Below are positions 25,282 to 60,973 of a stretch of 64,000 nt of DNA, piece by piece. The notes under the pieces were generated by a model. The model had not been told where the DNA came from and searched no databases. It worked only from the letters and a program-made list of their open reading frames with translations. Source of the stretch: an uncultured Opitutales bacterium (GTDB taxonomy: Bacteria > Verrucomicrobiota > Verrucomicrobiia > Opitutales > Intestinicryptomonadaceae); assembly GCA_900547395.1 (NCBI GenBank), contig URGP01000007.1, positions 45,707-109,706 on the forward strand. Direction: 5' to 3'. The first letter of the stretch is position 1; every line of letters starts with the position of its first letter. Both the position numbers and the translations under genes were made by a program.

Positions 25282-26985
25282 ATGACATCGGCGGACGATT
25301 TTATTATCCAATTATTGTCGGACAAAGGTTTGGTTAGTGCGGATGTAATAAGCGGCGCGCGGTCCCAGCTCGAAGGGGAAGGGGTTGGCGTTGACGTTAT
25401 TGACTCCCGCATAATCGACCTGCTTGTCGAAAAAAAATACACTCGTTTTGAAGACATTGTGCATGCGCTAAGCGAAGAATTCGGAATTCCCGAAATCGAC
25501 TTGAACGATTTGCGCATTGAAGACGATGTAAAGAAGCTCCTTCCAAAGGAAGAAGCCTTAAAGTACGGAGTGTTCCCTATTTCCGTGCATGAGGGGCAGC
25601 TCGAAATCGCAATAAGCGACCCTCTCAACGTAAACGCTTCCGACGATATAAGCCACTTGGTGGGAATGCCGCTTGACATGCGCCTTGCGTCTCCCGACGC
25701 AATCAAAAGGGCTATTGAGGAGCATTACGGCTCGTCCACTTACGATGGAATGTTTGAGGGCGTTGGCGATTCTTCAGACGGCGGCATTGCAATAGAAGAG
25801 GGGGCAAGCGAAGAGGAAGCCCCGATTATCCGTTATGTACATAAGCTCATAACCGAGGCGGTTCGCCGCAGGGCGTCCGACATTCACTTGGAGCCTCTTG
25901 AAAAGCGTTTCAGAGTCCGCTACCGCATCGACGGCGTTTTGATCGAAGTTGAAAATCCGCCGAAGCGTTTGCAGCCTTCTATTATTTCCCGCCTGAAGCT
26001 GATGGCAAACATTTCCATTGCGGAAAAGAGAATTCCGCAAGACGGGCGCATTCAAATCGCGTACGAAAAGAAAGACATCGACTTGCGCGTTTCGAGTCTG
26101 CCCACCGTTTACGGGGAATCCATCGTCATGCGTATTCTCGACAAGGAAGGCTTGCGTTTGGGCTTGCCCGAGCTTGGCTTTTTCTCTGACGACCAAACTG
26201 TTTTCGAGCGCGTGGTCAGCATGGCGGACGGCATATTCTTGGTAACAGGTCCGACGGGTTCAGGCAAATCCACAACGCTCTATTCTGCAATCAATTTCTT
26301 AAACCACCCCGACAGAAAAATCATCACGGTTGAAGACCCTGTCGAATACCAGATGTCGGGCGTAAACCAAGTACAGGTTAAGCGCGAGGTAGGCATGACT
26401 TTTGCGGCGGCTCTGCGCTCAATGTTGCGCCAAGCGCCAAACATAATAATGGTTGGCGAAATTCGCGACTTGGAAACAGCTGAAATTGCAATCAATGCTT
26501 CTCTTACGGGGCACATGGTGTTCTCCACACTCCACACGAACGATGCGGCAAGTGCGGTGACGCGTCTTGTCGATATCGGCGTAAAGCCGTTCCTTGTGTC
26601 GGCTTCTTTGCGAGCCGTTTTGGCGCAGCGTCTCGTAAGAAAAAGCTGCGCTCAGTGCAAGGAAAGCTATATTCCCGATTCCAAGGTTTTGCAGGCTTTG
26701 AACATCAATGAAATCGAAGCCGCCAAGATGTCGTTTATGAAGGGCAGGGGATGCCCCAAGTGCAACGGCATCGGCTACAAGGGTCGAATGGGATTGTTTG
26801 AAATCTTCCTCGTAAACGAAGAATTGCAGCAAATGGTTTATGAAGGCAGAACTTTGGTTGAAATCCGCCAAAAGGCGCGCGAACTCGGCATGAGAACAAT
26901 GCGCGAAGACGGCATTCGCAAAATTTCGAGCGGGCTTACCACTCCTGACGAAGTTCTGAAAGTCACAATGAACGAGGCTGATTAA
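25282..26985 (+). CDS. Type IV pilus/type II secretion assembly ATPase (GspE/PilB), first copy
   Basis: A 567-residue secretion ATPase. The N-terminal MshEN/T2SSE_N domain is followed by the catalytic core with [25 protein letters not shown], Walker [14 protein letters not shown], Asp box EDPVEYQ, Walker [14 protein letters not shown] and the His box [11 protein letters not shown]. The C-terminal zinc motif is CAQCKESY followed by [12 protein letters not shown]. The length and zinc motif mark it as an assembly (PilB) enzyme rather than a PilT retraction ATPase. A paralogue follows 21 bases downstream. Confidence 0.92.
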
Positions 26986-27006
26986 AAATAGCAAAGGAAT
27001 TTCAAA

Positions 27007-28692
27007 ATGTTTGAAGACCACAATAGCACCGTTTACGAAATAATGCTTGCGTCCAATTTGATAGACAAGGCGCAGCTTGACGATTTAAATCAAACGCACG
27101 TCGATACAGGCAAGTCGCTTGCCGATGTAATCATAGGTTCGGGTTTGGTTGAAAAAAATGCCTTTTTGCAGGCAATCGCGGACAATTTGAGCTATGAATA
27201 CATGCCTGCTCTTCCCTCCGACATTCCTCAGGAAGTTTCCAAGCAAATTAGGGCGCAGGTAGCGAGAATGTACGGGGTTGTCCCGCTTGAATGCACCGAC
27301 ACCACGATAAAAGTTCTGGCAATGGATCCCTTCAACAACTCCATTGTTGACGACTTGACATTCTCTTTGAACAAGGATGTTTCGATTGTCGTGGCAGATC
27401 CCGCGGCGGTTGAAAATCTGTTAAAACAGATTTATGGGGAAGAAGATTCGAGCATAGACGAGCTTCTTTCCGAAATTTCAGGGGTTAATTTCGGCGAAGG
27501 CGATATGTCCGAAAACGACATATCCAACATGGCGAACGAAACGCCGATTATCAGGTTCGTAAACCTCGTTTTGCAGCAGGCAATTCGCGACAAGGCGTCC
27601 GACATACACTTCGAGCCTTTTGAGGACTGCTTCCGCATACGCTACCGTATCGACGGCGCGCTCTACGAAATGGCTCCTCCTCCCAAAAGCCTGGCATTGC
27701 CCGTTATTTCCCGCGTCAAGGTTTTGGCTAATTTGAACATCGCCGAAACCCGCATTCCGCAGGACGGCAGAATTAAAATGTCGATTTCGGGAAGACCGAT
27801 TGACTTGCGCGTATCTACTCTTCCGACGCAGTTCGGCGAATCCGTGGTGCTTCGTATTCTCGACAAGTCCGTCGTAAACCTCGACCTCGATATGCTCAGC
27901 ATGTCCGACGAAGTAAAGTCGAACATTCGCAGGCTTGTAAATCTGCCAAACGGAATTTTCATCGTAACAGGCCCTACGGGTTCAGGTAAGACTACAACGC
28001 TTTACTCCGCATTGCGCGAAGTCAACACCGTTGACGTCAAGATTTTGACGGCTGAAGACCCTGTCGAATACGAAATCGACGGCATCATGCAGGTTCAAAT
28101 CAACCACCATGTGGGCTTGGACTTCGCAAGCGCATTGCGCTCCTTCCTGCGTCAGGACCCCGACAAGATAATGGTCGGCGAAATCCGCGACTTGGAAACT
28201 GCGCAGATTGCGGTTCAAGCGTCCCTCACGGGGCACGTCGTTTTGGCGACTTTGCACACAAACGACTCTCCGGGCGCGGTGACAAGACTTATGGATATGG
28301 GGCTTGAACCTTATCTTATCGCGGCTTCTCTTGAAGGCGTTTTGGGTCAGCGTTTGGTTAGAAAAATATGCCCGTCATGCAAGACGGCTTACGAACCCGA
28401 CCAGGAGCTTATCGACATGCTCGGCGTTGACCCGATAGAAATTGCCGACAAGCAGTTTTTCTTCGGCAAGGGATGCCCCGAATGCGCAAACTCCGGCTAC
28501 CGCGGCAGACAGGGCTTGTTCGAGCTTCTTTTGGTAAACGACGCGCTGCGCCAGCTCATCACCGCCCGCGCTCCGACTCTTGTCTTGAAGCAAAAGGCAA
28601 TAGAACTCGGAATGCGCACTTTGCGCGACGACGGCTTGCGCGCTATATTCGACGGCGCGACGACGGTTGAAGAAGTTTTGAAGTACACCTAA
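27007..28692 (+). CDS. Type IV pilus/type II secretion assembly ATPase (GspE/PilB), second copy
   Basis: A 561-residue paralogue of the preceding ATPase with the same plan: N-terminal domain, [25 protein letters not shown], Walker [36 protein letters not shown], and zinc motif CPSCKTAY then [12 protein letters not shown]. The two differ throughout, so the duplication is old. It is followed 18 bases later by the membrane platform gene. The two ATPases may serve different stages or different machines, or form a mixed hexamer; this is open. Confidence 0.92.
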
Positions 28693-28710
28693 TTTCAATA
28701 AAGGCACATT

Positions 28711-29940
28711 ATGGCAAAATTCAGATATATAGGAAAAAACAAGGACGGCAAAGAGGTAAACGACGTCATTGAAGCTTCGAGCGAAGCCAATGCCCGTATG
28801 CAGCTTGGTTCGAGCGGCATAAAAGTCGCCCGAATCGCCGAACTTACGGAAGGCGAATTGGCAAAGAAACCAAAAAAAGCGTTGTTCGGTACGGGTGTCT
28901 CAAACGAAAATGTGACAATATTTTCGCGACAGCTTGCGACGCTTTTGAAGGCGGGCTTGCCTCTTTTGCGTTCATTGGAAGTAATCAGCAGACAGGAAAA
29001 GAACCCCTACTTCAAGTCGGTTTTGGAGCAAATCGCCGACAACGTGAGAACGGGTAATAAATTTTCCGACGGCTTGTCGCAGCATCCCAAGATATTCGAC
29101 CACCTCTATGTGAACATGGCGCGCGCGGGTGAAGCGGGCGGCGTATTGGACGTCGTGCTTGACAGAGTCGCGACTTTCCAGGAAAAGGCTCTTAAAATCA
29201 AGAGCAAAGTGAAGGGCGCAATGGTCTATCCTATCGTGATTATGGTTGTTGCGGTCGTCATTGTCAGCGTCTTGATGGTGTTCGTCGTCCCGAAATTCCA
29301 AAAGATTTTCGACGATATGTTAAAGGGCGCGCAAATGCCCGAAATCACCCAAATTGTTATCGGCATTTCAACATTCATGAAAGATAATATTTTGGCGACG
29401 CTCGGCATTATCGTTTTTGCGTTTGTATTCATCAAGATATTCTTCAAAACGAAATTCGGCAAACGCCTCTGGGATATTGCAATCTTGAAACTTCCTAAAA
29501 TCGGCAATCTCGCAATGATGTCAACCGTTGCGCGCTTTACACGCACATTCGGCACTTTGCTGGCTTCGGGCGTTCCAATTCTTGACGCCCTTAAAATCAC
29601 AAGCGGCACCATCAATAATGTTGTCATTACCGACGCTTTGCAAAGAGTCCACGACAGGGTTAGAGACGGCGAAAATCTTGCGGGTCCCTTAGACCAGCAA
29701 AAACTCTTCCCCACAATGGTTACGAGCATGGTTGAAGTCGGCGAAGAAACGGGGCAGCTTGCGGAAATGCTAAACCGTATCGCTGATAATTACGACGAAG
29801 AAGTCGATAACGCGGTCGGAGCGGTAACATCAATCATCGAACCTATAATGATTTTGCTTATGGCGGTTGTTGTCGGTTCCATCGTTATCGCGCTTTTCTT
29901 GCCGCTCATTCAAATCATCCAAACACTTACCGGCGGTTGA
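28711..29940 (+). CDS. Type II secretion/pilus inner membrane platform protein (GspF/PilC)
   Basis: A 409-residue polytopic membrane protein with the double T2SSF domain: each half carries FSRQLATLLKAGLPLLRSL or FTRTFGTLLASGVPILDAL, followed by a membrane hairpin, and one helix closes the C-terminus. It anchors the assembly ATPase in pilus or pseudopilus machines. It starts 18 bases after the second ATPase and ends the operon; a terminator follows at 29967. Confidence 0.92.
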   Translation: MAKFRYIGKNKDGKEVNDVIEASSEANARMQLGSSGIKVARIAELTEGELAKKPKKALFGTGVSNENVTIFSRQLATLLKAGLPLLRSLEVISRQEKNPYFKSVLEQIADNVRTGNKFSDGLSQHPKIFDHLYVNMARAGEAGGVLDVVLDRVATFQEKALKIKSKVKGAMVYPIVIMVVAVVIVSVLMVFVVPKFQKIFDDMLKGAQMPEITQIVIGISTFMKDNILATLGIIVFAFVFIKIFFKTKFGKRLWDIAILKLPKIGNLAMMSTVARFTRTFGTLLASGVPILDALKITSGTINNVVITDALQRVHDRVRDGENLAGPLDQQKLFPTMVTSMVEVGEETGQLAEMLNRIADNYDEEVDNAVGAVTSIIEPIMILLMAVVVGSIVIALFLPLIQIIQTLTGG

Positions 29941-32246: not shown

Positions 32247-33986
32247 ATGGATTTAAGCAGTAAGGTTTCAAATAAGGCGAATTTAATTTGGGCGATTGCC
32301 GACAAGATAACAGGAGTTTACAAACCGCACGAATACGGCAAAGTAATACTGCCCCTTACAGTCATAAAGCGTTTTGATTCTATTTTGGAAGAAACAAAGT
32401 CTGCTGTGCTTGCGGCTAATGAAAAGTACGGCAAAATGGACAACGACATCATGCGTGATAATCTTCTTCGCAAAGCCGCAAAACAGCCTTTTTATAACAC
32501 GAGTAAATTCACGCTTCGCACATTGCTTGATGATCCTGATAATATTGACGACAATTTTGCGGTGTATCTGAATAGTTTTTCGCAAAACGTTTGCGATATT
32601 ATTGAAAAGTTCAAGTTCCAGAAAAACGAACTTCCCACGCTTCGCGAACACCATTTGTTGTTTGCGGTTTTGCAAGAATTTGCCACTGACAAGGCAGATA
32701 TGCATCCGTCTCGCGTAAGCAATATTGAAATGGGTTATATCTTTGAAGAGCTCATTCGCAAATTTTCGGAAAGCCATAACGAAGATGCGGGGCAGCACTA
32801 TACGCCAAGAGAAGTCATTGCGCTTATGGTGCATATACTTTTAAATTTTGACGATGCAATTTTATCGACAAACGATGCGCGCACAATTTACGACCCTGCT
32901 TGCGGTACGGGCGGTATGCTGACAGTTGCAAACGAGTATATAAAAAGCCATAATAGCGAAGCCCGTTTGCTCTGTTTCGGGCAAGAAATAAACGACGAAA
33001 CTTTTGCAATCGCAAAGGCGGATATGCTCATTAAGGGCGAAGATGATGGTCTTATACGCAACGGCAATACGATTTCAGACGATAAATTTCCAAATCAAAC
33101 ATTCAACTACATTATATCAAATCCGCCTTTTGGCAGAGAATGGAAGAATGAAAAAACCAATGTTGAAAAAGAAGCAAAAATAAAAAAGGAAAACGGCGGA
33201 CGCTTTTTTATGGGCTTGCCTTCCATAGGCGATAGCCAGATGTTGTTTTTGTCTAACGCAGTGGCAAAGATGAAGCCTGTTGAAGATGGTGGTAGCCGTG
33301 TAGCGATTGTTCATAACGGTTCTCCGCTTTTCACCGGCGATGCGGGTAGCGGCCCCAGCGATATCCGCAAATATATTTTAGAACACGATTTGCTTGAAGC
33401 TATAATAGCCTTGCCTAACGACATTTTCTACAACACGGGAATTGCAACATACATTTGGATTTTGAGCAATAATAAAGAAAAACGTCGTATTGGCAAAGTT
33501 CAACTTATCAATGCAAATGGACTTTACGAAAAACGCCGAAAGAGTCTTGGTAATAAGCGCAACGATATTCCAAAATCTGCCATCGAAAAAATCGCAAAAA
33601 TCTATGGCGATTTTAAAGAAAACAAGATTAGCAAAATTTTCAAAAATGAAGATTTTGGATACCGCAAAGTTGTTGTTGAACGCCCATTGAAAGATGAAAA
33701 AGGCAAGACCGTTTTGAAGAAAGGTAAACCTCAGCCAGATCCGAAACTGCGCGATACCGAAAATATCCCACTTTCAGAAGACGTTGCCGAATATATGAAA
33801 CGTGAAGTTTTGCCATACGCACCTGACGCTTGGATTGACGAAAGCAAAACAAAAATCGGTTACGAAATTCCATTCACACGCTATTTTTACGAATACACGC
33901 CGCCGACACCATCGGCAGATTTGATGAAAGAAATTCTGCAAATAGAATCCGAACTCAAGGGCTCTATGGAAAGGATTTTCGAGTAA
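32247..33986 (+). CDS. hsdM: Type I restriction-modification DNA methyltransferase subunit
   Basis: A 579-residue N6-adenine methyltransferase. The N-terminal helical domain (NLIWAIADKITGVYKPHEYG) is followed by the AdoMet-binding motif YDPACGTGGM from residue 215 and the catalytic NPPF at residues 292-295. It marks host DNA at the site read by HsdS and forms the M2S core of the restriction complex. It is the first gene of a five-gene cluster (hsdM, hsdS, OLD nuclease, helicase, hsdR) with tiny gaps, 2 bases before hsdS. Confidence 0.95.
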   Translation: MDLSSKVSNKANLIWAIADKITGVYKPHEYGKVILPLTVIKRFDSILEETKSAVLAANEKYGKMDNDIMRDNLLRKAAKQPFYNTSKFTLRTLLDDPDNIDDNFAVYLNSFSQNVCDIIEKFKFQKNELPTLREHHLLFAVLQEFATDKADMHPSRVSNIEMGYIFEELIRKFSESHNEDAGQHYTPREVIALMVHILLNFDDAILSTNDARTIYDPACGTGGMLTVANEYIKSHNSEARLLCFGQEINDETFAIAKADMLIKGEDDGLIRNGNTISDDKFPNQTFNYIISNPPFGREWKNEKTNVEKEAKIKKENGGRFFMGLPSIGDSQMLFLSNAVAKMKPVEDGGSRVAIVHNGSPLFTGDAGSGPSDIRKYILEHDLLEAIIALPNDIFYNTGIATYIWILSNNKEKRRIGKVQLINANGLYEKRRKSLGNKRNDIPKSAIEKIAKIYGDFKENKISKIFKNEDFGYRKVVVERPLKDEKGKTVLKKGKPQPDPKLRDTENIPLSEDVAEYMKREVLPYAPDAWIDESKTKIGYEIPFTRYFYEYTPPTPSADLMKEILQIESELKGSMERIFE

Positions 33987-33988
33987 AT

Positions 33989-35269
33989 ATGAAATCAAGC
34001 GGCATAGAGTGGATTGGCGATATTCCTGATGATTGGAGTATTGTAAAAATAAAACATATAGGAAAATTAATTGGTGGTTCCGGTTTTCCAGAAGAATATC
34101 AAGGCATAAATGGAGAAGAAATACCATTTATAAAAGTAAAATCATTGGTTGAAAATCCAATAACAAGAGAAGGTAAAGATTCTATATCAGAATTAACAAG
34201 ATTAAAACTGAAAGCTGAAAAAATCGTAAAAGGATCTATCGTATTTGCTAAAGTTGGAGCAGCATTGTTGCTTCAACGATTTAGAGTATTGGAATTTGAT
34301 TCTTGCATTGATAATAATATGATGGCATTTGTGCCAATATCCATAAACTCAATATATTTTAAATATGTTACAAGTTTGTTTGATTTCTCTTATTTCGTAA
34401 ATCCAGGAACGGTGCCCTCAATAAACCAAGAACAGGTTGGAAATATAAATATTTCATATCCACCTTTGGTCTCGCAACAAAAGATAGCGGATTATTTGGA
34501 TGAGAAGTGTGGGGAGATTGATAAGACAATCGAAAAGCAGAAAAAAGGTATCGAAAAACTTAAAGCCTATAAGCAATCGCTAATTTCCGAAACTGTCACA
34601 AAAGGCCTCAACAAATCTACCCCTCTCAAACCCAGCGGAATAGATTATATCGGCGATATTCCAACCCATTGGGATGTGAAAAAATTAAAAACATTATTAA
34701 AAGAACCATTAACTTATGGTGCGAATGAAAGTGGTATTTTATTTAATGAAAACGAGCCTAGATACATTAGGATTACAGATATTAAAGACGAACAATCTCT
34801 TCGTGATGACATTCCTCAATCTCTACCAGAAAATAAGGCAAAAGACTATATTCTTCAAAATGATGATATTCTATTAGCAAGAAGTGGTGCAACTGTTGGA
34901 AAAACTTTTATCTATAAATCAGATTTTGGAAGGTGTGCATTTGCAGGATATTTGATACGAGCACGTATGGATGTTTCACAAATGTTACCTATATTCTTTA
35001 TATATTATTCTCTCTCTTTCTGCTATTTTGAATGGAAATCAAGGATATTCATTCAAGCAACAATACAAAATATAGGAGCAAATAAATATAATAATATGGA
35101 GATCCCAACACCTCCAATTTCTGAACAAAATCAAATTGCGGAGTATCTCGATGTAAAATGTTCTGAAATTGATTCTACTATAAATAAAAAACAAAATTTA
35201 ATAGAAAAACTTGACGCATATAAAAAATCCCTTATCTTCGAATACGTAACAGGTAAACAAAAAATTTAG
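33989..35269 (+). CDS. hsdS: Type I restriction-modification specificity subunit
   Basis: A 426-residue DNA recognition subunit with two target recognition domains. Each half begins with the same motif (GIEWIGDIPDDW and GIDYIGDIPTHW) and ends with a long helix that spaces the domains (EIDKTIEKQKKGIEKLKAYK, and EIDSTINKKQNLIEKLDAYK). The two variable domains are clearly AT-rich compared with hsdM. The specificity cannot be predicted. It ends 4 bases before the OLD nuclease gene. Confidence 0.93.
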   Translation: MKSSGIEWIGDIPDDWSIVKIKHIGKLIGGSGFPEEYQGINGEEIPFIKVKSLVENPITREGKDSISELTRLKLKAEKIVKGSIVFAKVGAALLLQRFRVLEFDSCIDNNMMAFVPISINSIYFKYVTSLFDFSYFVNPGTVPSINQEQVGNINISYPPLVSQQKIADYLDEKCGEIDKTIEKQKKGIEKLKAYKQSLISETVTKGLNKSTPLKPSGIDYIGDIPTHWDVKKLKTLLKEPLTYGANESGILFNENEPRYIRITDIKDEQSLRDDIPQSLPENKAKDYILQNDDILLARSGATVGKTFIYKSDFGRCAFAGYLIRARMDVSQMLPIFFIYYSLSFCYFEWKSRIFIQATIQNIGANKYNNMEIPTPPISEQNQIAEYLDVKCSEIDSTINKKQNLIEKLDAYKKSLIFEYVTGKQKI

Positions 35270-35273
35270 ATAT

Positions 35274-36827
35274 ATGGCAGTCACTATAAAAAGAATTGTA
35301 TTAAATAATTTTAAGAAATTTAAAAAACTATCAGTTGATTTCAATGACGGGAAAAATATAATAGTCGGAGACAATGAAACAGGGAAAAGTACTATTTTGA
35401 CGGCTATAGATTTAGTCTTATCTGCTAGTATATCAAAGATTGAACGCTTTGGACTAGAGAATCTTTTCAATAGGAGTGCAATTGATGAGTTTCTTTCGTT
35501 GGAAACTCGTAAGCGAACAATAAATGAACTACCTCATTTATCTATTGATGTATATTTAAATGGCATAACAGACCAGATTTTTGAAGGTAAAAATAACCTT
35601 GAAAAAACGTATGACATAGGAATAAGATTAGATATTTCTCCAAGTGACGATCAAGAGGAAATAATAAATGCGATAATCTCAGGCGATAACAAGACGTTCC
35701 CGTTTGAATACTACAAAATTCAGTTTTTCACATTCGCTGGTAATTCTTATCATAAATTCAATAAGATATTCACAAATATTCTAATAGATAATTCCGACAT
35801 AGACGGAGAATATGCAAAGCGAGAATACATAAAAGGCGTATATTATAAAACGTCACAAATCCAAGATAGAGTAAGACATCAATATAATTTTAGAAATACT
35901 CATGACAATTTTTCGGAAAATTTTTTAAGCGAGATTTCTTCGGGCTCAATTTCGTTTAAAGTTCCCTCTAACAATAAATTTTCGCTAGAGAATCAGCTTC
36001 AAATCTATCATGAAAATGTCAATATAAATAACAAAGGTAAGGGTTATCAAAATTTAATAAAAACTAAATATGCACTACAAAAAACACAAGATACATTAAA
36101 TAAGCTTATACTTATTGAAGAACCTGAGAATCATCTAAGTGCAACTAATATGCTAAAGCTTTTAGATGAGATATCTAAATATACAGACGGGCAGATGTTC
36201 ATTACAACTCATAGCAATATGATAACATCGCGATTGGGACTTGAGAATCTTTTTATATTAAGTGGCATTGACTCTGTAAGTAAACTTTCCGATTTAAAGA
36301 AAGATACGTCAGAATTTTTCATTAAGGCTCCGAACAGCAATATATTGAATTTTGTACTTTCTAAAAAAGTAATTCTTGTTGAAGGGCATGCCGAATATAT
36401 TCTCATGGAAAAATTTATAAAAAGTACATGTGGAAAGATGAATAACGACGTCCAAATTATATCCGTGAATGGATTATCTTTTAAACGTTACTTAGAGATT
36501 GCAAAAATAACTGGGGGGAAAACGGCTGTTATTACTGACAATGATGGTGACTATACCAATAATGTTAAGGAAAAATACTCTGATTATAACAAGTATCCTA
36601 ATATCAAGATATTTTCTCCAGAAGATAATGCTATAACAACGTTTGAAAAAGCTATTTACAAGTGTAATAAAGACTTATGCGAGAATAAATTCGGTGCCGA
36701 AAGGAAAGATGTTGTACATTATATGCTATCAAATAAGTCGGATTGTGCGTTTGAACTCTTAAAGTCTGACGAAACACTAATAGTTCCAGAGTATATTAGA
36801 AATGGTATAACATGGATAAGCGTTTAA
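35274..36827 (+). CDS. OLD-family ATP-dependent nuclease (Gabija GajA-like)
   Basis: A 517-residue protein with an N-terminal ABC-type ATPase and a C-terminal TOPRIM nuclease domain. Seen directly: Walker A GDNETGKST (residues 32-40), Walker B LIEEPENHL with Glu282-Glu283, switch His in TTHSN, TOPRIM Glu370 in LVEGHAEY, and Asp422/Asp424 in TDNDGDY. This layout next to a UvrD-like helicase is that of class 2 OLD proteins, which include GajA of the Gabija anti-phage system. It is AT-rich, overlaps the helicase gene by 16 bases, and lies between hsdS and hsdR. The Gabija name is inferred from family and context; the helicase partner is shorter than usual. Confidence 0.75.
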   Translation: MAVTIKRIVLNNFKKFKKLSVDFNDGKNIIVGDNETGKSTILTAIDLVLSASISKIERFGLENLFNRSAIDEFLSLETRKRTINELPHLSIDVYLNGITDQIFEGKNNLEKTYDIGIRLDISPSDDQEEIINAIISGDNKTFPFEYYKIQFFTFAGNSYHKFNKIFTNILIDNSDIDGEYAKREYIKGVYYKTSQIQDRVRHQYNFRNTHDNFSENFLSEISSGSISFKVPSNNKFSLENQLQIYHENVNINNKGKGYQNLIKTKYALQKTQDTLNKLILIEEPENHLSATNMLKLLDEISKYTDGQMFITTHSNMITSRLGLENLFILSGIDSVSKLSDLKKDTSEFFIKAPNSNILNFVLSKKVILVEGHAEYILMEKFIKSTCGKMNNDVQIISVNGLSFKRYLEIAKITGGKTAVITDNDGDYTNNVKEKYSDYNKYPNIKIFSPEDNAITTFEKAIYKCNKDLCENKFGAERKDVVHYMLSNKSDCAFELLKSDETLIVPEYIRNGITWISV

Positions 36828-37840
36828 TTTTAGCCGTAGCAGGCTCTGGTAAAACTACGTTTATTGTAGATCACATAGAATCTACACAGCGCGTTTTGCT
36901 TATTACATATACAGATAACAATTACAATATATTAATAAAAAAACTCCGTGATAAGTTTCATGTAATACCTAAAAACATATATGTAACAACCTATTTTTCT
37001 TTCTTATACTCTTTTTGTTTTAAGCCATTTTATTTTCTAGACTATCGAACTAAAGGGCTAACTTTTAAACAGGTATCCCAACAAATTTTAAGTATTCCTA
37101 AGAAAAATATTGCTCGTTATATTACAAAATCAAAATATGTATATCATTGTAACTTAGCGGATTTTTTGTTGCGTCATAATATTAACTTGATTATGGAACG
37201 AATTAAGCGACATTACGACTACATATATATTGACGAGGTGCAAGACTTTGCATCGTATGATTTTGACTTTATATTAAAAATTGCAAAATGCGATATTAAT
37301 ATCTTATATTTAGGCGATTTTTATCAACATACTTTTGACACAAGTAATTCGGGTAACAAAGCCAGTAATTTATACAAAAACGGAATTGCTAATTATGAGA
37401 AAAAATTTAATGGAATTTTAAATATTGACAAAGTTACTCTTTCAAAAAGTTATCGTTGCAAAAGAAATATTTGTGATTTCATATCAATGTTAGGTATGAA
37501 AATTCAATCTCATCACGAAGAAGATGCTTGTATTACCCCATTAGAAAAGGAAAATGAGATACTTGATTGCTTAAAAAATGATAATATTGTAAAATTATTT
37601 TATAAAGAATGTCAAAAATATCCTTTTAACTCAAACAATTGGGGTGCTTGTAAAGGTTCTACTTTTGGTGATGTTTGTGTTATAACTACGAAAGACGTTC
37701 ATGCTGCAATAAAAACAAAATTCTTTGAAAATCTTAGCCCAATTACACGTAATAAGTTTTATGTTGCATGTTCAAGAGCAAGTAATAATCTTTTCTTCAT
37801 TGAGGGTTCAAAGGTTAAGTCATTTAAGAAGTCAATATAA
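36812..37840 (+). CDS. Short UvrD-like helicase (GajB-like)
   Basis: A 342-residue superfamily 1 helicase. Motif I is AVAGSGKTT (Lys14), motif II DEVQ at residues 141-144, motif III YLGDFYQHTFDT, motif IV LSKSYRCKRNICDF, and motif VI KFYVACSRASNNL. Known GajB proteins are near 490 residues, so the accessory 1B/2B domains are reduced here. It overlaps the OLD nuclease gene, as in Gabija operons, and is followed 6 bases later by hsdR. It may sense or process DNA ends together with the OLD nuclease. Confidence 0.75.
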   Translation: MDKRLILAVAGSGKTTFIVDHIESTQRVLLITYTDNNYNILIKKLRDKFHVIPKNIYVTTYFSFLYSFCFKPFYFLDYRTKGLTFKQVSQQILSIPKKNIARYITKSKYVYHCNLADFLLRHNINLIMERIKRHYDYIYIDEVQDFASYDFDFILKIAKCDINILYLGDFYQHTFDTSNSGNKASNLYKNGIANYEKKFNGILNIDKVTLSKSYRCKRNICDFISMLGMKIQSHHEEDACITPLEKENEILDCLKNDNIVKLFYKECQKYPFNSNNWGACKGSTFGDVCVITTKDVHAAIKTKFFENLSPITRNKFYVACSRASNNLFFIEGSKVKSFKKSI

Positions 37841-37846
37841 TAAAAT

Positions 37847-40825
37847 ATGAGCCAATTTAACCATAAAGAAATCAAATTAGAAGAAGCGATTGAGGATTTT
37901 TTGTGTTCGGCAAAGGGCGGGTTTATCAAGGGTAATGATAAGTCGTTCAATGCTGTATCGGCTCTTGATGAAAGTGTTTTGATAAAATTTATCAAGAAAT
38001 CCCAGCCAAAGGCTTGGGAGCGTTATCAACTTCTTTATGGTATTGATTCTGAACGCAAGTTTATAAAGCGTTTTTGCGAAGAGGTGGAATCGGACGGATT
38101 AATCAAAGTATTGCGAAATGGCATAAAAGACATGGGAGTTGAATTTAAGGTTGCATATTTCGCGCCGGAAACTTCCAAAAATCCGCAGTTAATTGAGCGT
38201 TTCAAGCACAATGTTTTGCAATGTGCGCGCCAATTCCATTATTCGCCGTCAGACCCCAAGAACACCATTGACATGGTGCTGCTTTTAAACGGCATACCGA
38301 TTGTAGCTCTCGAGCTTAAAGACGAATTTTCAGGGCAAACTGTAGATGACGCTATCAGGCAATACAAGTTAGATCGCAACCACAAAGACCCGATTTTTGC
38401 GTTTAACCGCAGACTTCTTGTTTGTTTTGCCGTAGATTTAGCCAATGTCTTTATGACAACGAAAGTTGCAGGTGTTTCTACTTGTTTTCTCCCGTTTAAC
38501 CAAGGCTCAAATGGCGCCGGCAATGTCGGAGGCAAGGGCAATCCGCCAAATCCTGATAATTTTATGACATCTTATCTTTGGGAAAATGTTCTCCGCAAAG
38601 ACAGGTTGATGGAAATCTTGCAAAAGTTCATTCATTTGGAAAAAAAGCCGGACGGCAAGCAGAACATAATTTTCCCCCGCTATCACCAATTAGACGTTGT
38701 CACAAGGCTTTTGGCAGACGTAAAACAAAATGGCTCAGGCAAAAATTATTTGATTCAGCACAGCGCGGGCAGCGGCAAGTCAAACTCTATCGCATGGCTT
38801 GCTCACAGACTTTCAGGGCTTCACAACAACAATGACGAAAAGATTTTTAATTCTGTAATTATCGTTACAGATAGAAAAGTCTTAGACGCTCAACTGCAAG
38901 ATACCGTTTATCAGTTCGACCACACAAGAGGTGTTGTTCAAAAAATCTACAAAAACGCAAAACAACTCTTAGAGGCAATAAATAACAGAGTTCCTATTAT
39001 CATCACAACTTTACAAAAATTCCCAGTCATATTTGAACAAGTTAAAGCTGGTGACAGAAACTTTGCTGTTATTTGCGACGAAGCTCACTCATCGCAAACA
39101 GGCTTGGCTGCAAAAAAGCTAAAGTTCGCACTTGCCAATATGGAAAAAGAACTTGAAGAAGCTGCAAAAATAGACAGCGAATCGGGCGATGAAAAATGCG
39201 AGTATGACAACAAAATCTTAGAAGAATTGGCATCGCATGGAAATCACAAAAACTTGTCGTTCTTTGCGTTCACCGCAACCCCCAAAGGCAAAACATTGCA
39301 GATGTTCGGCACTCAAATGCAAGACGGCTCATTTAGGGCTTATCACATCTATTCAATGCGTCAGGCAATAGAGGAGGGATTTATTTTAGACGTTCTCAAA
39401 AATTACACAACTTACAAAACTTACTACAAAATCGCAAAAACAGACGAGAACGATCCTGAATTTGACAAGCGCAAGGCTTCGAGGGCTGTTCGTAATTTTC
39501 AGTCATTGCACCCTCACAACATATCGCAAAAAACTGCGATAATGATTGAGCATATTCGCGACATTACCGCAAATAAAATCGGCGGACGGGCAAAAGCAAT
39601 GGTCGTTACCGCATCAAGGCTTCACGCTGTTCGCTATTTTAAAGAGTTCAAGAATTTCATAAAAGACAATGGCTATGATAATCTTGATGTACTTGTGGCG
39701 TTCTCTGGTGAACTCGTCGATGGGGATGTGTCTTATACCGAAGAAAAATGCAATAAGGCAAAATCTGGCGAAACAATAAAAGAAAGCCAGCTTAAAGACT
39801 ATTTTAAGGGCGAAGATTTCAACATACTTATAGTGGCTGAAAAATATCAAACCGGATTCGATGAGCCGCTATTGCATACAATGTTTGTCGATAAGCGTCT
39901 GATCGGCGTGAATGCGGTGCAAACTCTTTCAAGATTAAACCGTACCTGTCCCGGCAAAGAAGATACATTTATCTTGGATTTTGTAAATGAGCCTGAGGAC
40001 ATAAAAGAAGCTTTCAGCCCATTCTATCAGGCAACCGTTCTTCAAGAAGAATCCGACCCAAACCGCATTTACGAGTTGAAGAAAATTTTAGATAACTCTG
40101 CCATCTATACCCGTCAGCAAATTGATGATGTAGCAGAAATTTACTTCAAAGCCGGCCAACAAGAAAAATCTGCTGTCGGGAAAATCCGTTCAATATTAGA
40201 AGATTCCATAAAAATTTACATTGGGCTAAAACGTGACGACAAAGATAAAGTTTTGTCAGCATTGGAATCTTATGTAAGCTTCCACAGCTTCATAACTCAA
40301 ATCTGCAGAATGTACGACAAGGACTTGCTAAAATTCGCAGTATTTGCGAAATTCCTCTTGAAAGTAATTCCACGCGACAAGGCTGAGAAAGTTCAACTCG
40401 ATGACATGATTCTTCTTGAATACTACAAAAATGAAAAGAAGTACGGCGGAAGCATAGCACTTGAAAATAAAGATGGCAATGTAATGCCAATGACAGGCGC
40501 CGGCAAAAAATCAGAACCTAAAAAAGATAAACTTTCGCTAATTGTTGACGATATCAACAAGCAATTCGGAACTCGTTTTACCGAAATGGATAAGGTCTTA
40601 AAACAAATTGAAAACGACCTTGTAAACGATCCCGAGCTGCAAAAGTTTGCCAAAAGCGATAGGGAAACCATCAGGATTGTTTACGATAAGCTTTTCCCTG
40701 AAAGACTCGCAACTCGCTACGCAAACAATGAGGAATTTTTCAGCAGAATGTGTGGCGACAAAAAGTTTATGGAAGACATTATGGCGCGTCTTTTCCCGAT
40801 AGTTTTGCAAAGGCTGATAAAGTAA
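37847..40825 (+). CDS. hsdR: Type I restriction endonuclease subunit R
   Basis: A 992-residue motor and nuclease subunit. The N-terminal PD-(D/E)xK nuclease is seen in DMVLLLNGIPIVALELKDEF; the superfamily 2 motor has Walker A SAGSGKSNS (Lys311), DEAH box ICDEAHSSQTG, FTATP, and the late motif VQTLSRLNRTCPG. The C-terminal helical region binds the methylase core. It is complete and last in the five-gene cluster, so the type I system appears intact. Length matches the common 1000-residue HsdR. Confidence 0.95.
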   Translation: MSQFNHKEIKLEEAIEDFLCSAKGGFIKGNDKSFNAVSALDESVLIKFIKKSQPKAWERYQLLYGIDSERKFIKRFCEEVESDGLIKVLRNGIKDMGVEFKVAYFAPETSKNPQLIERFKHNVLQCARQFHYSPSDPKNTIDMVLLLNGIPIVALELKDEFSGQTVDDAIRQYKLDRNHKDPIFAFNRRLLVCFAVDLANVFMTTKVAGVSTCFLPFNQGSNGAGNVGGKGNPPNPDNFMTSYLWENVLRKDRLMEILQKFIHLEKKPDGKQNIIFPRYHQLDVVTRLLADVKQNGSGKNYLIQHSAGSGKSNSIAWLAHRLSGLHNNNDEKIFNSVIIVTDRKVLDAQLQDTVYQFDHTRGVVQKIYKNAKQLLEAINNRVPIIITTLQKFPVIFEQVKAGDRNFAVICDEAHSSQTGLAAKKLKFALANMEKELEEAAKIDSESGDEKCEYDNKILEELASHGNHKNLSFFAFTATPKGKTLQMFGTQMQDGSFRAYHIYSMRQAIEEGFILDVLKNYTTYKTYYKIAKTDENDPEFDKRKASRAVRNFQSLHPHNISQKTAIMIEHIRDITANKIGGRAKAMVVTASRLHAVRYFKEFKNFIKDNGYDNLDVLVAFSGELVDGDVSYTEEKCNKAKSGETIKESQLKDYFKGEDFNILIVAEKYQTGFDEPLLHTMFVDKRLIGVNAVQTLSRLNRTCPGKEDTFILDFVNEPEDIKEAFSPFYQATVLQEESDPNRIYELKKILDNSAIYTRQQIDDVAEIYFKAGQQEKSAVGKIRSILEDSIKIYIGLKRDDKDKVLSALESYVSFHSFITQICRMYDKDLLKFAVFAKFLLKVIPRDKAEKVQLDDMILLEYYKNEKKYGGSIALENKDGNVMPMTGAGKKSEPKKDKLSLIVDDINKQFGTRFTEMDKVLKQIENDLVNDPELQKFAKSDRETIRIVYDKLFPERLATRYANNEEFFSRMCGDKKFMEDIMARLFPIVLQRLIK

Positions 40826-56346: not shown

Positions 56347-56375
56347 AAGCCCCGTTTTTTTTCGGGGCTTTTTTT
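56347..56375 (+). terminator. Terminator after the PpiD-like gene
   Basis: AAGCCCCG pairs with CGGGGCTT around an 8-base T-rich loop, with T-run. Confidence 0.85.
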
Positions 56376-56554: not shown

Positions 56555-59500
56555 ATGGCAAAACGTACAGATATTAAAAGTATATTGATTGTAGGCTCAG
56601 GGCCTATCGTAATCGGCCAAGCTTGCGAATTTGACTATTCGGGAAGCCAAGCCTGCAAAGCATTGAGAGAGGAAGGGTACAAGGTAATTCTTGTAAATTC
56701 AAATCCCGCCACAATTATGACCGACCCCCAGATGGCGGACGTAACCTACATTGAGCCTCTCACTCCCGAATCATTGGAAAAAATCATCGCAAAAGAACGC
56801 CCCGACGCGCTTTTGCCGACTTTGGGCGGGCAGACAGGCTTAAATCTTTCCACGGAACTCTACCGCATGGGCATTCTCGAAAAGTACGGCGTGGAAATGA
56901 TTGGCGCAAAGGCGGAAGCCATCGAGAAGGGCGAAGACCGCGAAAAATTCCGCGAAGCGATGATAAAAATCGGTCTGGACGTGCCTAAGAGCGCGGTTGT
57001 CCATACTATGGAAGAGGCGGTAAGCTGGATTGAAGAGCACAAGCGTTATCCTGTAATTATAAGACCGAGTTTTACTTTGGGCGGCACGGGCAGCGGCATT
57101 GCCTACAACCGCGATGAATTTGAAAGAATGGTTGCATTCGGCTTGGAAGCCTCTCCCGTCACTGAAATTTTGATTGAAGAAAGCCTTATCGGCTGGAAGG
57201 AAATCGAAATCGAAGTAATGCGCGACAAAAAAGACCAGTGCATCGTAATTTGCTCCATTGAAAATTTCGACCCAATGGGCGTCCATACGGGCGACTCAAT
57301 CACCATTGCCCCCGCGCTAACTTTGACGAACAAAGAATACCAGCTTATGCGTGACGCCTCTTTTGCAATCATTCGCGAAATCGGCGTTGAATCGGGCGGC
57401 TCCAACATCCAGTTTGCGGCTGATCCCAAGACGGGCAGGATTGTCATTATCGAAATGAATCCGCGCGTATCGCGCTCTTCTGCTTTGGCTTCAAAAGCAA
57501 CGGGCTTTCCGATTGCAAAGATGGCGGCAAAACTCGCGGTCGGCTACACGTTGGACGAGCTTAAAAACGACATTGTAAAGACAATTCCCGCAAGCTTTGA
57601 GCCTACGGTTGACTACATCGTCGCAAAATATCCGCGCTTTGCATTTGAAAAGTTCGTGGGCGCGGACGATACTTTGACAAGCTCCATGAAATCCGTCGGC
57701 GAAGTTATGTCGATTGGCAGGACTTTCAAGGAGGCAATTCAAAAGGCAATCCGCTCCTTGGAAATCGGCGCGCGCGGCTTGGGCGGCGGCGGAAAGTTCG
57801 GAGGCTTTGAAGTTTCGGACATTTCTGAAATCACAAAGAATTTGGTTCGTCCGACGGCAAACAGAATGTTTTATATCCGCTACGCGCTTTTGGCGGGAAT
57901 GACCGAGGAGCAAATTTGCGAGCTTACCAATATCGACCCGTGGTTCATACGCCAAATATCAGAAATTGTCGAAACCGAAAAGAATTTGCGTAAATCGGGT
58001 CTTTTGAACATGACAAAAGAGCTTTTGCAGGAGGCAAAATCTTCGGGCTTTACCGACTTGCAGATAGCCGACATCTGTTCCACGAAAATCCGCAACATCA
58101 AAAAATTGCGCGAAGAATGGGGCATCAACACTGTTTACAGGCTTGTTGACACTTGCGCGGGAGAATTCAGCGCGGTAAATCCGTATTACTATTCCACCTA
58201 CGGCGCGGAAAGCGAAATCAAGCATTCCGACAAGAAGAAAATCATGATTATCGGCGGCGGTCCGAACAGAATAGGGCAGGGCATCGAGTTCGACTATTGC
58301 TGCGTCCACGCCTCGTTTGCGCTCCGCGAAGCCGGATACGAAACAATCATCGTAAATTCAAATCCCGAGACCGTTTCAACCGACTACGACACTTCCGACA
58401 AGCTCTTCTTCGAGCCTCTCACTCTTGAAGACGTTTTGGAAGTTTACAAGCAGACAAATTGCGACGGCGCAATCGTCCAGCTCGGCGGGCAGACTCCGCT
58501 AAACTTGGCGAGCGAATTGAAGGCAAACGGCGTAAACATCATCGGGACTTCCCCTGAATCCATCGATGCCGCCGAAGACCGCGAAATATTCAAGGAAATT
58601 CTCGACAAGCTCCATTTGAAGCAGCCCGTAAACGCGACTGCAATGAATCCCGAGCAGGCTTACGAACTTGCGGGCAAGATTGGTTTCCCGATTTTGTTAA
58701 GACCAAGCTTCGTTTTGGGCGGAAGAGGCATGTTCATAGTCTATAACATGGACGACATGAAAAAGGTAATCCGCGAGGCTTTTGAAGCGGCGCCAGGCAA
58801 GCCTGTCCTTCTTGACAAATTCCTTGAAGACGCAATCGAGCTTGACGTTGACGCAATTTCAGACGGCGAAACAACCGTTGTTGGCGGAATGCTTGAACAC
58901 ATCGAGTACGCGGGCGTGCATTCGGGCGACGCGGCAATGGTGCTTCCCCCGCACACGCTCTCCGAAAAAATGCTTGAAGAGGTGCGGCAGGCAACTTACG
59001 CCCTCGCAAAGGAATTGAAGGTTGTCGGGCTTATGAACATACAGTTTGCGATAAAGGACAACGAGCTTTATTTGCTCGAAGTAAATCCGAGGGCATCGCG
59101 CACTGTTCCGTTCTGCTCGAAAGTAATCGGTGTTCCGCTTGCGAAAATCGGCGCGCGCGTAATGGCCGGCGAAAAGCTGAAAGACTTGGGCTTTACAAAG
59201 GAAGTGAAAGTTCCTTTTGTCGCCGTAAAGGAATCGGTGTTCCCGTTTGTGCGCTTCAGGGGCGCAACAATTATGCTAAGTCCCGAAATGCGCTCCACGG
59301 GCGAAGTAATGGGCTTGGGTCCCGACTTGCTGACTGCCTTTGCAAAGAGTCAGGACGCCGCCCAGCCTTCTCTTCCAAAGTCGGGCAACGCATTCTTGTC
59401 GGTTAAAGACCACGATAAGCCGATGGCTTTGGAAATTGCAAAGAGGCTTGTTGCTCTCGGCTTTAAGCTTTTCTCGACTTCGGGAACGGCGAAGCTTCTT

Positions 59501-59800
59501 TCTGAAAACGGAATACCCGTAACCCGCACATACAAGTTGAACGAAGGGGCGCGCCCGAACGTCATCGACATGATTAAAAACGACGAAATGGACTTAATCA
59601 TAAACACTCCGTCCGGAATGACTCCGCGCCTTGACGAAAACAAAATCCGCCAGGAGGCATTGCTTAAAAAAGTTTGCACAATGACTACAATGATGGCGGC
59701 AAACGTCGCGGTAAAGGGCATCGAGGCAATGCGCGAAAAGGAAATGAGCGTGCAGTCTTTGCAAGATTATATGAAAATGGTTAACGGTTCAAAGGAATAA
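56555..59800 (+). CDS. carB: Carbamoyl-phosphate synthase large subunit
   Basis: A 1081-residue synthetase with two ATP-grasp halves. Each half starts with a Rossmann-like motif ([20 protein letters not shown] and [20 protein letters not shown]), and has RPSF plus ENP-type [19 protein letters not shown] and [13 protein letters not shown]. The C-terminal MGS-like allosteric domain ([17 protein letters not shown]) is present. It makes carbamoyl phosphate for pyrimidines and arginine from bicarbonate, ATP and ammonia. It precedes carA, the reverse of the usual carA-carB order. Confidence 0.96.
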
Positions 59801-59804
59801 TTTT

Positions 59805-60923
59805 ATGGGTAAGGCAATTTTGGCATTCGCCGACGGAACAGTGTTTACAGGCTCTTCGTTCGGCGCAAAGACAACCAGAGTGGGCAAGGCTGCCTTCAAC
59901 AGCGCGGTTATGGGCTATCAGGAGCTTATAAGCGACCCCGCAAGCGCAGGGCAAATCATGGTGCTTACCGCGGTTGAAGTCGGCAACTACGGCGTAAATT
60001 CAGCCGACGCGCAGAGCGGCAGGGTTTGGATTGAAGGCTTGGCTGTTATGCGCAACAGCTCCATTGTAAGCAACTGGAGAAGCGAAGGGTCATTGAACGA
60101 TTATCTCGTTTCAAACGGCATTCCGGGCATTGAAGGCTTGGATACCCGCGCAATCGCAATGAAAATTGTGCGCGGCGGCGCAATGGGCGCGTGCCTCTCA
60201 ACCGAAGATATTTCGGAAGACAAGGCGGTTGAGCTTGCGAAGTCGTGGAATGGCTTTGTCGGCAAGGATTTTGGTGCGTCCTGCAAGTCTCAATACAAGT
60301 TTGACGATTCAAACATTGCTCCGTTTTCGGTAAGCGGCACCGATATTTACAAGTCTGTCCGCAAAACGCCCCTGAAAAAATGCGCAGTCATTGATTTGGG
60401 CGCGGCAAATTCAATTTTGCAGACGCTCGCGTACAACGGCTTTGACTTGCAGGTTTTCCCGTCAAGCGCGGAAGTTTCGGAAATCGAGGCGTCAAATCCC
60501 GACTGCGTGTTTGTTTCAAGCGGAGCGGGTTTGGTTTGCGCCTCTGTTTTGGAAAACATAAAGGCTCTTCAAAAGAAATATCCCGTTTTGGGCATCGGCT
60601 TGGGGCATTTGGCGATTGCCATGGCAAACGGCGCGAAAATCCGCGAACTGAAATTCGGGCGCAAAAACAGCCAGCCTGTAAAGAATGTCGCAACCGATTT
60701 AGTGAGGGTTTCGGCGCACAACATAGATTTTGTGGTTGATGAAAATTCGCTCGAAGGCACAGGTTTGGAAGTTTCATATGTCAATATAGACGACAATTCC
60801 ATCGCGGGGCTTAAAAGCGAAAACACGATGTCGGTTATTTTCTATCCCGAAGGCACGAAAGGCCCTAAAAATTCAGATTCGGTTTACGAGGAATTTTATA
60901 AATTCGTTTCCGAAAAGCGTTAA
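59805..60923 (+). CDS. carA: CarA-like small subunit with degenerate glutaminase site
   Basis: A 372-residue homologue of the carbamoyl-phosphate synthase small subunit. The N-terminal domain is well kept (AFADGTVFTGSSFGA, MGYQELISDPASAGQI, GLDTRAIAMKIV). The C-terminal class I glutaminase domain is not: the nucleophile motif is GIGLGH (usual GICLGHQ), so Cys is Gly at residue 265; the catalytic His motif is FYPEG (usual FHPEA), His being Tyr at residue 347; and the oxyanion loop NGPGDP reads SSGAGLV. The frame is intact and starts 4 bases after carB, so a structural role with ammonia as nitrogen source is likely. Glutamine use should be lost, as in mammalian CPS I. Confidence 0.9.
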   Translation: MGKAILAFADGTVFTGSSFGAKTTRVGKAAFNSAVMGYQELISDPASAGQIMVLTAVEVGNYGVNSADAQSGRVWIEGLAVMRNSSIVSNWRSEGSLNDYLVSNGIPGIEGLDTRAIAMKIVRGGAMGACLSTEDISEDKAVELAKSWNGFVGKDFGASCKSQYKFDDSNIAPFSVSGTDIYKSVRKTPLKKCAVIDLGAANSILQTLAYNGFDLQVFPSSAEVSEIEASNPDCVFVSSGAGLVCASVLENIKALQKKYPVLGIGLGHLAIAMANGAKIRELKFGRKNSQPVKNVATDLVRVSAHNIDFVVDENSLEGTGLEVSYVNIDDNSIAGLKSENTMSVIFYPEGTKGPKNSDSVYEEFYKFVSEKR

Positions 60924-60940: not shown

Positions 60941-60973
60941 AAAAACGCCCCCTGAAACGGGGGCGTTTTTTTT
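60941..60973 (+). terminator. Terminator after carA
   Basis: AAAAACGCCCCC pairs with GGGGGCGTTTTT, followed by further T. Confidence 0.9.

Follow-up and report, generated by a model that had tools for sequence, protein, structure and literature searches.

A carB-carA unit with an inactivated glutaminase site, and a probable ammonia-dependent carbamoyl-phosphate synthetase, in gut Opitutales

The carB-carA* unit of an Opitutales contig

The stretch of DNA analyzed here (the window) comprises 64,000 nucleotides (nt) of an Opitutales contig, and all coordinates are counted from its first letter. It carries a two-gene unit for carbamoyl-phosphate synthetase (CPS), in which carB (56555..59800, +; 1081 residues) encodes the large subunit and carA* (59805..60923, +; 372 residues) encodes a small subunit with an inactivated glutaminase site. 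Hereafter, CarA* and carA* denote the small subunit lacking the catalytic cysteine and its gene, carB2 denotes its partner (the type to which the carB of the window belongs), and carB1 denotes the large-subunit gene of the intact set. The window carA* contains zero internal stops and starts 4 nt past the end of carB, which, together with the low dN/dS reported below, bears out the first-pass annotation of an intact frame coupled to carB. The same annotation had read Gly265 at the position of the nucleophile Cys269 of Escherichia coli CarA and Tyr347 at the position of His353, and both replacements are borne out by their codons, GGC (60597..60599, +) and TAT (60843..60845, +), and by related proteins. 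The two E. coli residues are named in PMC6245113. The NGPGDP loop is indeed replaced by SSGAGLV (60516..60536, +), and the third residue of the triad, Glu349 (E. coli Glu355; 60849..60851, +), is retained. Predicted intrinsic terminators, consensus matches only, lie between the upstream peptidyl-prolyl isomerase (PPIase) gene and carB (56347..56370, +) and behind carA* (60949..60973, +; stem at 60949-60963, then a T run), the latter closing the two-gene unit; the terminator scan counted 12 in the region against 8.7 for shuffles (standard deviation, 3.2), close to shuffle level.

Both subunits remain recognizable by domain and family models. CarA* of the window matched CPSase_sm_chain (125 bits) and GATase (70 bits), cleared the NF009475 cutoff (292.2 versus 221 bits), and missed that of TIGR01368, the glutamine-hydrolyzing model (288.5 versus 307.35 bits). 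It has the domain pair of a CPS II small subunit but lacks its catalytic Cys269 and His353. As in CPS I, the glutaminase domain is kept while the catalytic Cys is replaced; CPS I is a single fused polypeptide, however, and carB and carA* are separate genes 4 nt apart. The window CarB passed NF003671 (1650 bits) and TIGR01369 (1503 bits) and contains two ATP-grasp halves with catalytic residues. At the positions that we take to be catalytic, 14 of the 15 checked match E. coli, with the exception of H754K, a change found in every aligned Opitutales CarB covering position 754 except that of genome G204. The catalytic residues checked are the same in CarB2 as in CarB1, and the tunnel and effector positions were likewise assigned by assumption; at most of the presumed effector positions, CarB2 equals CarB1. 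In CarA, the residues counted as glutamine contacts, apart from Cys269 and His353, are likewise those that we take to fill this role. These observations confirm that the window CarA is encoded by an intact gene with a lost glutaminase site, coupled to a CarB that retains its catalytic residues.

Conservation and duplication history of carB2-carA*

The loss of both Cys and His recurs in independently obtained sequences. Both residues were missing from the protein cluster P0001 (99% identical to the window CarA*, 53 members), from P0002 and P0003 (78 to 81% identical), and from the CarA of contig L001 (92% identical), which belongs to an independent Opitutales metagenome-assembled genome (MAG) from yak caecum and shares 89.6% nucleotide identity with the window over its 4.6 kb. 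Since P0001 to P0003 and L001 lack both residues independently, a sequencing error is ruled out. Among the 120 proteins listed, Cys was missing in seven (P0001 to P0006 and P0008). We then aligned 262 CarA sequences, 30 of which came from genomes, the window, and E. coli and 232 from two protein listings that contain many near copies. Cys was absent from 108 of these 262, with Gly in its place in 104 and Asp in 4. Using E. coli numbers, Pro242 and Gly313 were kept in none of the 108 Cys-less proteins, while Asn240 was kept in 5, His353 in 83, and Glu355 in 93; the 154 proteins with Cys all kept His353, Glu355, Asn240, and Pro242, and 153 of them kept Gly313. This pattern of retention indicates that Cys, Pro242, and Gly313 were lost together, with His lost later in some lineages. 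One Cys-less CarA, P0141, is labeled by its source as deriving from a "Bacilli bacterium" MAG but scores with Opitutales sequences, and its bin is therefore probably mixed.

A pseudogene is ruled out by the low dN/dS of carA* and carB. Between the window and L001, dN/dS was 0.094 for carA* (0.040 for the N-terminal domain and 0.110 for the GATase domain) and 0.024 for carB2. Further CarA* pairs gave 0.055, 0.065, and 0.043 (the last at high dS), and intact CarA gave 0.047 to 0.102; two of the five CarA* pairs yielded no estimate, and several saturated dS values were left out. CarA* thus falls in the range of intact CarA and, as a whole, is not more relaxed. Values for CarB2 ranged from 0.010 to 0.024 where dS could be estimated. 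Constraint was uneven along the protein. Among positions that do not vary across 27 intact CarA and E. coli, all 18 Cys-less CarA retain 24 of 37 in the N-terminal domain and only 19 of 62 in the GATase part. The CarA* protein is retained, whereas its glutamine site is not.

A phylogenetic analysis of 47 CarA proteins placed the 18 Cys-less members in one clade (support 89/94; recovered as a single group in 92% of bootstrap trees) that branches from within the intact CarA of the same Opitutales family. The 11 CarB2 partners of CarA* also formed one clade (support 92/100). In the simplest reading of these trees, carB and carA were duplicated in the Opitutales family, the copy became the carB2-carA* unit, and Cys was lost once near its base; His and the glutamine pocket then appear to have decayed variably between lineages. 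The alignment of related CarA proteins proposed in the first-pass annotation hence dates the Cys loss as a single early event in a paralogue and the His loss as later. That annotation had inferred an ammonia-dependent CPS that had lost its glutaminase. The idea stands as the best reading of the sequences, but the simple loss of Cys in the single CarA of a lineage gives way to a pair of paralogues, since the pair present in seven relatives (below) rules out such a loss in a sole carA as the full history.

The genomic context differs between the two sets. In all 10 genomes having carA*, as well as in the window, carA* lies directly behind carB2. Intact carA and carB1 sit on contigs other than that of carB2-carA* in the genomes mapped; in G137, intact carA is near ribonuclease H genes and carB1 near suf genes, with similar neighbors in other genomes. 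No conserved neighborhood of carB2-carA* was found across the nine Cys-less loci mapped, where only G166 and G146 shared neighbors and a few genes were common to pairs of loci. A plasmid search with the carBA region matched only 4 to 7% of the query. When 387 genomes from the phylum were searched for a Cys-to-Gly CarA outside the family, the DNA pattern G[IV]G[LF]GHQ occurred at 37 places in 33 genomes, and none of the 30 places retrieved was a CarA; this pattern is blind to GHL, GMQ, and Asp forms, which the recognized family members in the sample (G001 and G017) have, so that the search was without a positive control. One place found through GVGLGHQ, L192 (G562, ~1339-1848), encodes a class I amidotransferase-like protein other than CarA, 24 to 30% identical to it over a GATase domain, which may lack Cys.

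Synthetases and CTP synthases in the family genomes

To determine which synthetases accompany carA*, we examined 19 genomes, all drafts, from the GTDB family that includes G001, to which contig L001 belongs. Profile searches with PF00988 and PF02787 covered 16 of them, and G204, G209, and G082 were classed by other searches. Seven genomes contained both an intact carA with carB1, separate from the Cys-less unit, and carB2-carA*; six contained the intact set only; and three (G001, G017, and G116, representing two lineages) contained carB2-carA* only. The remaining three had neither set: G204 has instead a distant carA-carB pair with an intact Cys (L116; 32% and 43% identical to the genes of the window), perhaps acquired from elsewhere, no CarA was found in G209, and G082 is uninformative, having matched nothing in any search, translation GTPases included. 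In G174, a contig end truncates the second carB. The nearest relative of the window, G001, is thus one of the three genomes in which no intact carA was found; it is a fragmented 1.7-Mb MAG whose carB2 runs off its 4.6-kb contig. G017 (2.5 Mb) and G116 (2.4 Mb) match the other genomes in size, and both aspartate and ornithine carbamoyltransferases were above the cutoff in these two. Carbamate kinase was rejected as an alternative source of carbamoyl phosphate, as none was above the cutoff in the 19 genomes, with weak matches (E values of 9e-6 to 8e-4) in eight.

CTP synthase (PyrG), whose gene lies outside the window, is next to CarA the other class I amidotransferase in pyrimidine synthesis, and its glutaminase is altered in the same three genomes. 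In G017 (L143/L170) and G116 (L147/L172), GLGLGMQ replaces GICLGMQ, a Cys-to-Gly change, and in G001 (L139/L176), Cys is kept while Tyr replaces His and AGSVG replaces PGGFG. PyrG was scored in 20 of 22 PyrG-bearing genomes, with G249 (partial) and G252 (outside the open-frame filter) omitted, and catalytic residues were lost in 3/3 Cys-less-only genomes versus 0/17 others. Among the 16 genomes of the family whose synthetase could be classed, the contrast was 3/3 versus 0/13 (Fisher p 0.0018), the independent events being two, not three: in a tree of 49 PyrG proteins, supported branches forced two origins, one uniting G001 with P0238 and the other G017 and G116 with six metagenome proteins. 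Among the listed metagenome PyrG proteins, 7 of 120 were broken.

These distributions bear on the possibility that intact carA and carB1 exist but were not assembled in the three Cys-less-only genomes and in the species of the window, a situation compatible with ammonia use. All of the genomes are drafts without completeness figures, and G001, with its small size, its truncated carB2 contig, and no ornithine carbamoyltransferase found, fits such a gap. Against this, assembly gaps would need to have removed two separate loci, carA and carB1, from all three genomes, two of which match the others in size and encode both carbamoyltransferases. In a rough completeness check, five size classes of GTP_EFTU-domain proteins were present in all three, with some truncated at contig ends in G001, while G166 and G156 lacked some of the classes. 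In addition, G116 has a decayed carA fragment (L105:18610-18784, about residues 90 to 150, with a broken frame and one stop) ~7 kb from carB2-carA*, too short for assignment to a paralogue, and the CTP synthase losses fall in exactly these three genomes. We therefore regard assembly gaps as an unlikely explanation.

Somewhat harder to sustain is a role for CarA* as a regulatory or decoy paralogue, with intact CarA serving both CarB copies and glutamine remaining the nitrogen source. Such sharing is conceivable in the seven genomes with an intact carA, which there adjoins neither carB. However, only carA* and carB2 were found in three genomes, and the position of carA* directly behind carB2 in all 10 genomes and the window fits a dedicated partner, which makes this reading rather improbable.

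The amidotransferases checked as a control speak to the cause of the losses, as distinct from ammonia use. Glutamine-analogue antibiotics such as acivicin and 6-diazo-5-oxo-L-norleucine (DON) act on CPS and CTP synthase by alkylating the catalytic Cys, and the changes observed could have been selected as resistance to them; PMC5803862 describes inhibition of both enzymes by such analogues in trypanosomatids, and the Cys-to-Gly changes take away the target atom in both enzymes of G017 and G116. Yet the Cys-dependent GuaA, HisH, and GlmS are intact in these same two genomes and the CTP synthase of G001 retains its Cys, so that we hold resistance to be an improbable cause. GuaA and HisH were also intact in G198 and G146, the N-terminal Cys of GlmS was retained in G017, G116, G198, G146, and G001, and a PurF-like protein with its Cys was retained in G017, G198, and G146. 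Three class II matches (L186 to L188) have a Cys in ECGI near their start and are PurF-like by eye, L188 being without an NCBIfam match at 1e-60. The Lys and Ser motifs that we take to be those of GatA are retained in the window. A loan of ammonia to CarB2 in trans by another glutaminase subunit of the HisH or TrpG type, for which the intact HisH of G017 and G116 and the known sharing of a glutaminase between synthases by PabA could be invoked, is very improbable in our view.

Probable ammonia dependence and comparison with known synthetases

We consider it probable, judging from sequence comparisons, that carB2-carA* encodes an ammonia-dependent synthetase born of duplication, in which CarA* likely plays a structural or regulatory part, and that in the Cys-less-only genomes both steps of pyrimidine synthesis at which ammonia enters run on free ammonia. 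CarB2-CarA* is probably an active enzyme that would form carbamoyl phosphate from bicarbonate, ATP, and ammonia at CarB2. CarA* would dock on CarB2 as in E. coli, but it should be unable to cut glutamine because Gly offers no nucleophile. In the three Cys-less-only genomes, and probably in the species of the window, CarB2-CarA* would be the sole synthetase, ammonia entering CarB2 directly or via the old tunnel, and the product would feed the pyrimidine pathway and, in G017 and G116, that of arginine as well. Where both sets are present, CarB2-CarA* may act as an ammonia-fed second synthetase beside the glutamine-dependent one, similar to vertebrate CPS I and II. The lost residues, and the genomes that yielded no second synthetase, lead us to infer that ammonia is the only nitrogen donor. 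Cys269 mutants of E. coli CPS retain ammonia-dependent activity. According to PMC6245113 and PMC9138612, respectively, E. coli CPS can use ammonia and E. coli CTP synthase can use added ammonia. Both ammonia-entry steps of pyrimidine synthesis may thus have moved from glutamine to free ammonia; an ammonia-rich gut would be the likely setting for this shift, and escape from glutamine analogues a possible alternative cause, disfavored by the intact GuaA, HisH, and GlmS. The first-pass annotation saw support for an ammonia-rich setting in a type III glutamine synthetase gene of the window; this gene is present (16738-18864, -; GSIII_N, 245 bits) but says little about ammonia.

With more reserve, we favor a broader scenario for this family of gut Opitutales, in which a CPS I/CPS II pair arose from duplication of carAB and at least two lineages gave up the glutamine-dependent synthetase and, independently of each other, inactivated the glutaminase in CTP synthase. 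Free ammonia would then supply both nitrogen-entry steps of the pyrimidine pathway as well as the carbamoyl phosphate used for arginine, with glutamine still serving the synthesis of GMP, histidine, and hexosamines.

Several points weigh against ammonia dependence or narrow its reach. The relatives are drafts without completeness figures, and an intact carA and carB1 may be present in the genome of the window, as they are in seven relatives. G001 yielded no ornithine carbamoyltransferase, GuaA, or HisH, aspartate carbamoyltransferase being the only carbamoyltransferase detected. The PyrG of G001, with its Cys retained, and that of G116 still pass TIGR00337 ("glutamine hydrolyzing CTP synthase"), a model blind to single residues, and dS was near saturation in several of the pairs compared. 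Finally, E. coli CPS requires very high, likely unphysiological ammonia, and glutamine is described as the physiological donor for all bacterial CPS (PMC6245113).

The E. coli CarAB, a glutamine-dependent CPS II, has a Cys-His-Glu triad in CarA, of which the window CarA* lacks Cys and His, and its gene order is carA-carB rather than carB-carA*. In CPS I, Ser replaces Cys and glutamine use is lost, as stated in PMC4655335, which also treats frog CPS; CPS types are reviewed in PMC6022934. Human CPS1 (PDB 5DOT/5DOU) is one chain, whereas the window system has two separate bacterial subunits, with Cys changed to Gly, a CarB2 of the bacterial family, and an origin by carAB duplication inside one bacterial family. 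The CPS III of Alcolapia fish shifted to ammonia through changes in the glutamine pocket, with the triad kept (PMC7657897), and frog CPS I likewise shifted by way of this pocket. Although the Opitutales system would resemble Alcolapia CPS III and frog CPS I as a natural shift to ammonia, those enzymes keep the catalytic triad, whereas here Cys is gone, and in the window His too. The best reading of the sequences is a bacterial counterpart of the ammonia-dependent CPS I, reached via gene duplication. PyrG adds a second altered enzyme, with catalytic residues lost in 3 of the 20 proteins scored, exactly those of the Cys-less-only genomes. A natural Cys-less bacterial CarA or PyrG was named in no title or abstract among the literature matches listed, most subscription journals being outside the scope of that search.

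If correct, a natural bacterial ammonia synthetase would break the rule that glutamine is the donor in bacterial CPS. Vertebrate CPS I would gain a natural two-subunit counterpart amenable to production in E. coli, and one could test directly how affinity for ammonia is acquired by a CPS whose glutaminase has died. The matched and repeated loss in CTP synthase would then mean that two enzymes of the same pathway had lost the same catalytic function in a correlated way, and this loss might also mark free-ammonia metabolism among gut bacteria.

Elsewhere in the window, the Rfam scan matched tRNAs only. A gene for the transcription terminator Rho (23046-25238) has an N-terminal extension of ~290 residues ahead of the Rho match. 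Two adjoining genes for GspE/PilB-type ATPases and, after them, a GspF/PilC gene occupy 25282-29940. A type I restriction-modification cluster (HsdM, HsdS, and HsdR) spans 32247-40825, and an OLD-like AAA ATPase and a UvrD/viral-helicase-like protein are encoded between its S and R genes.
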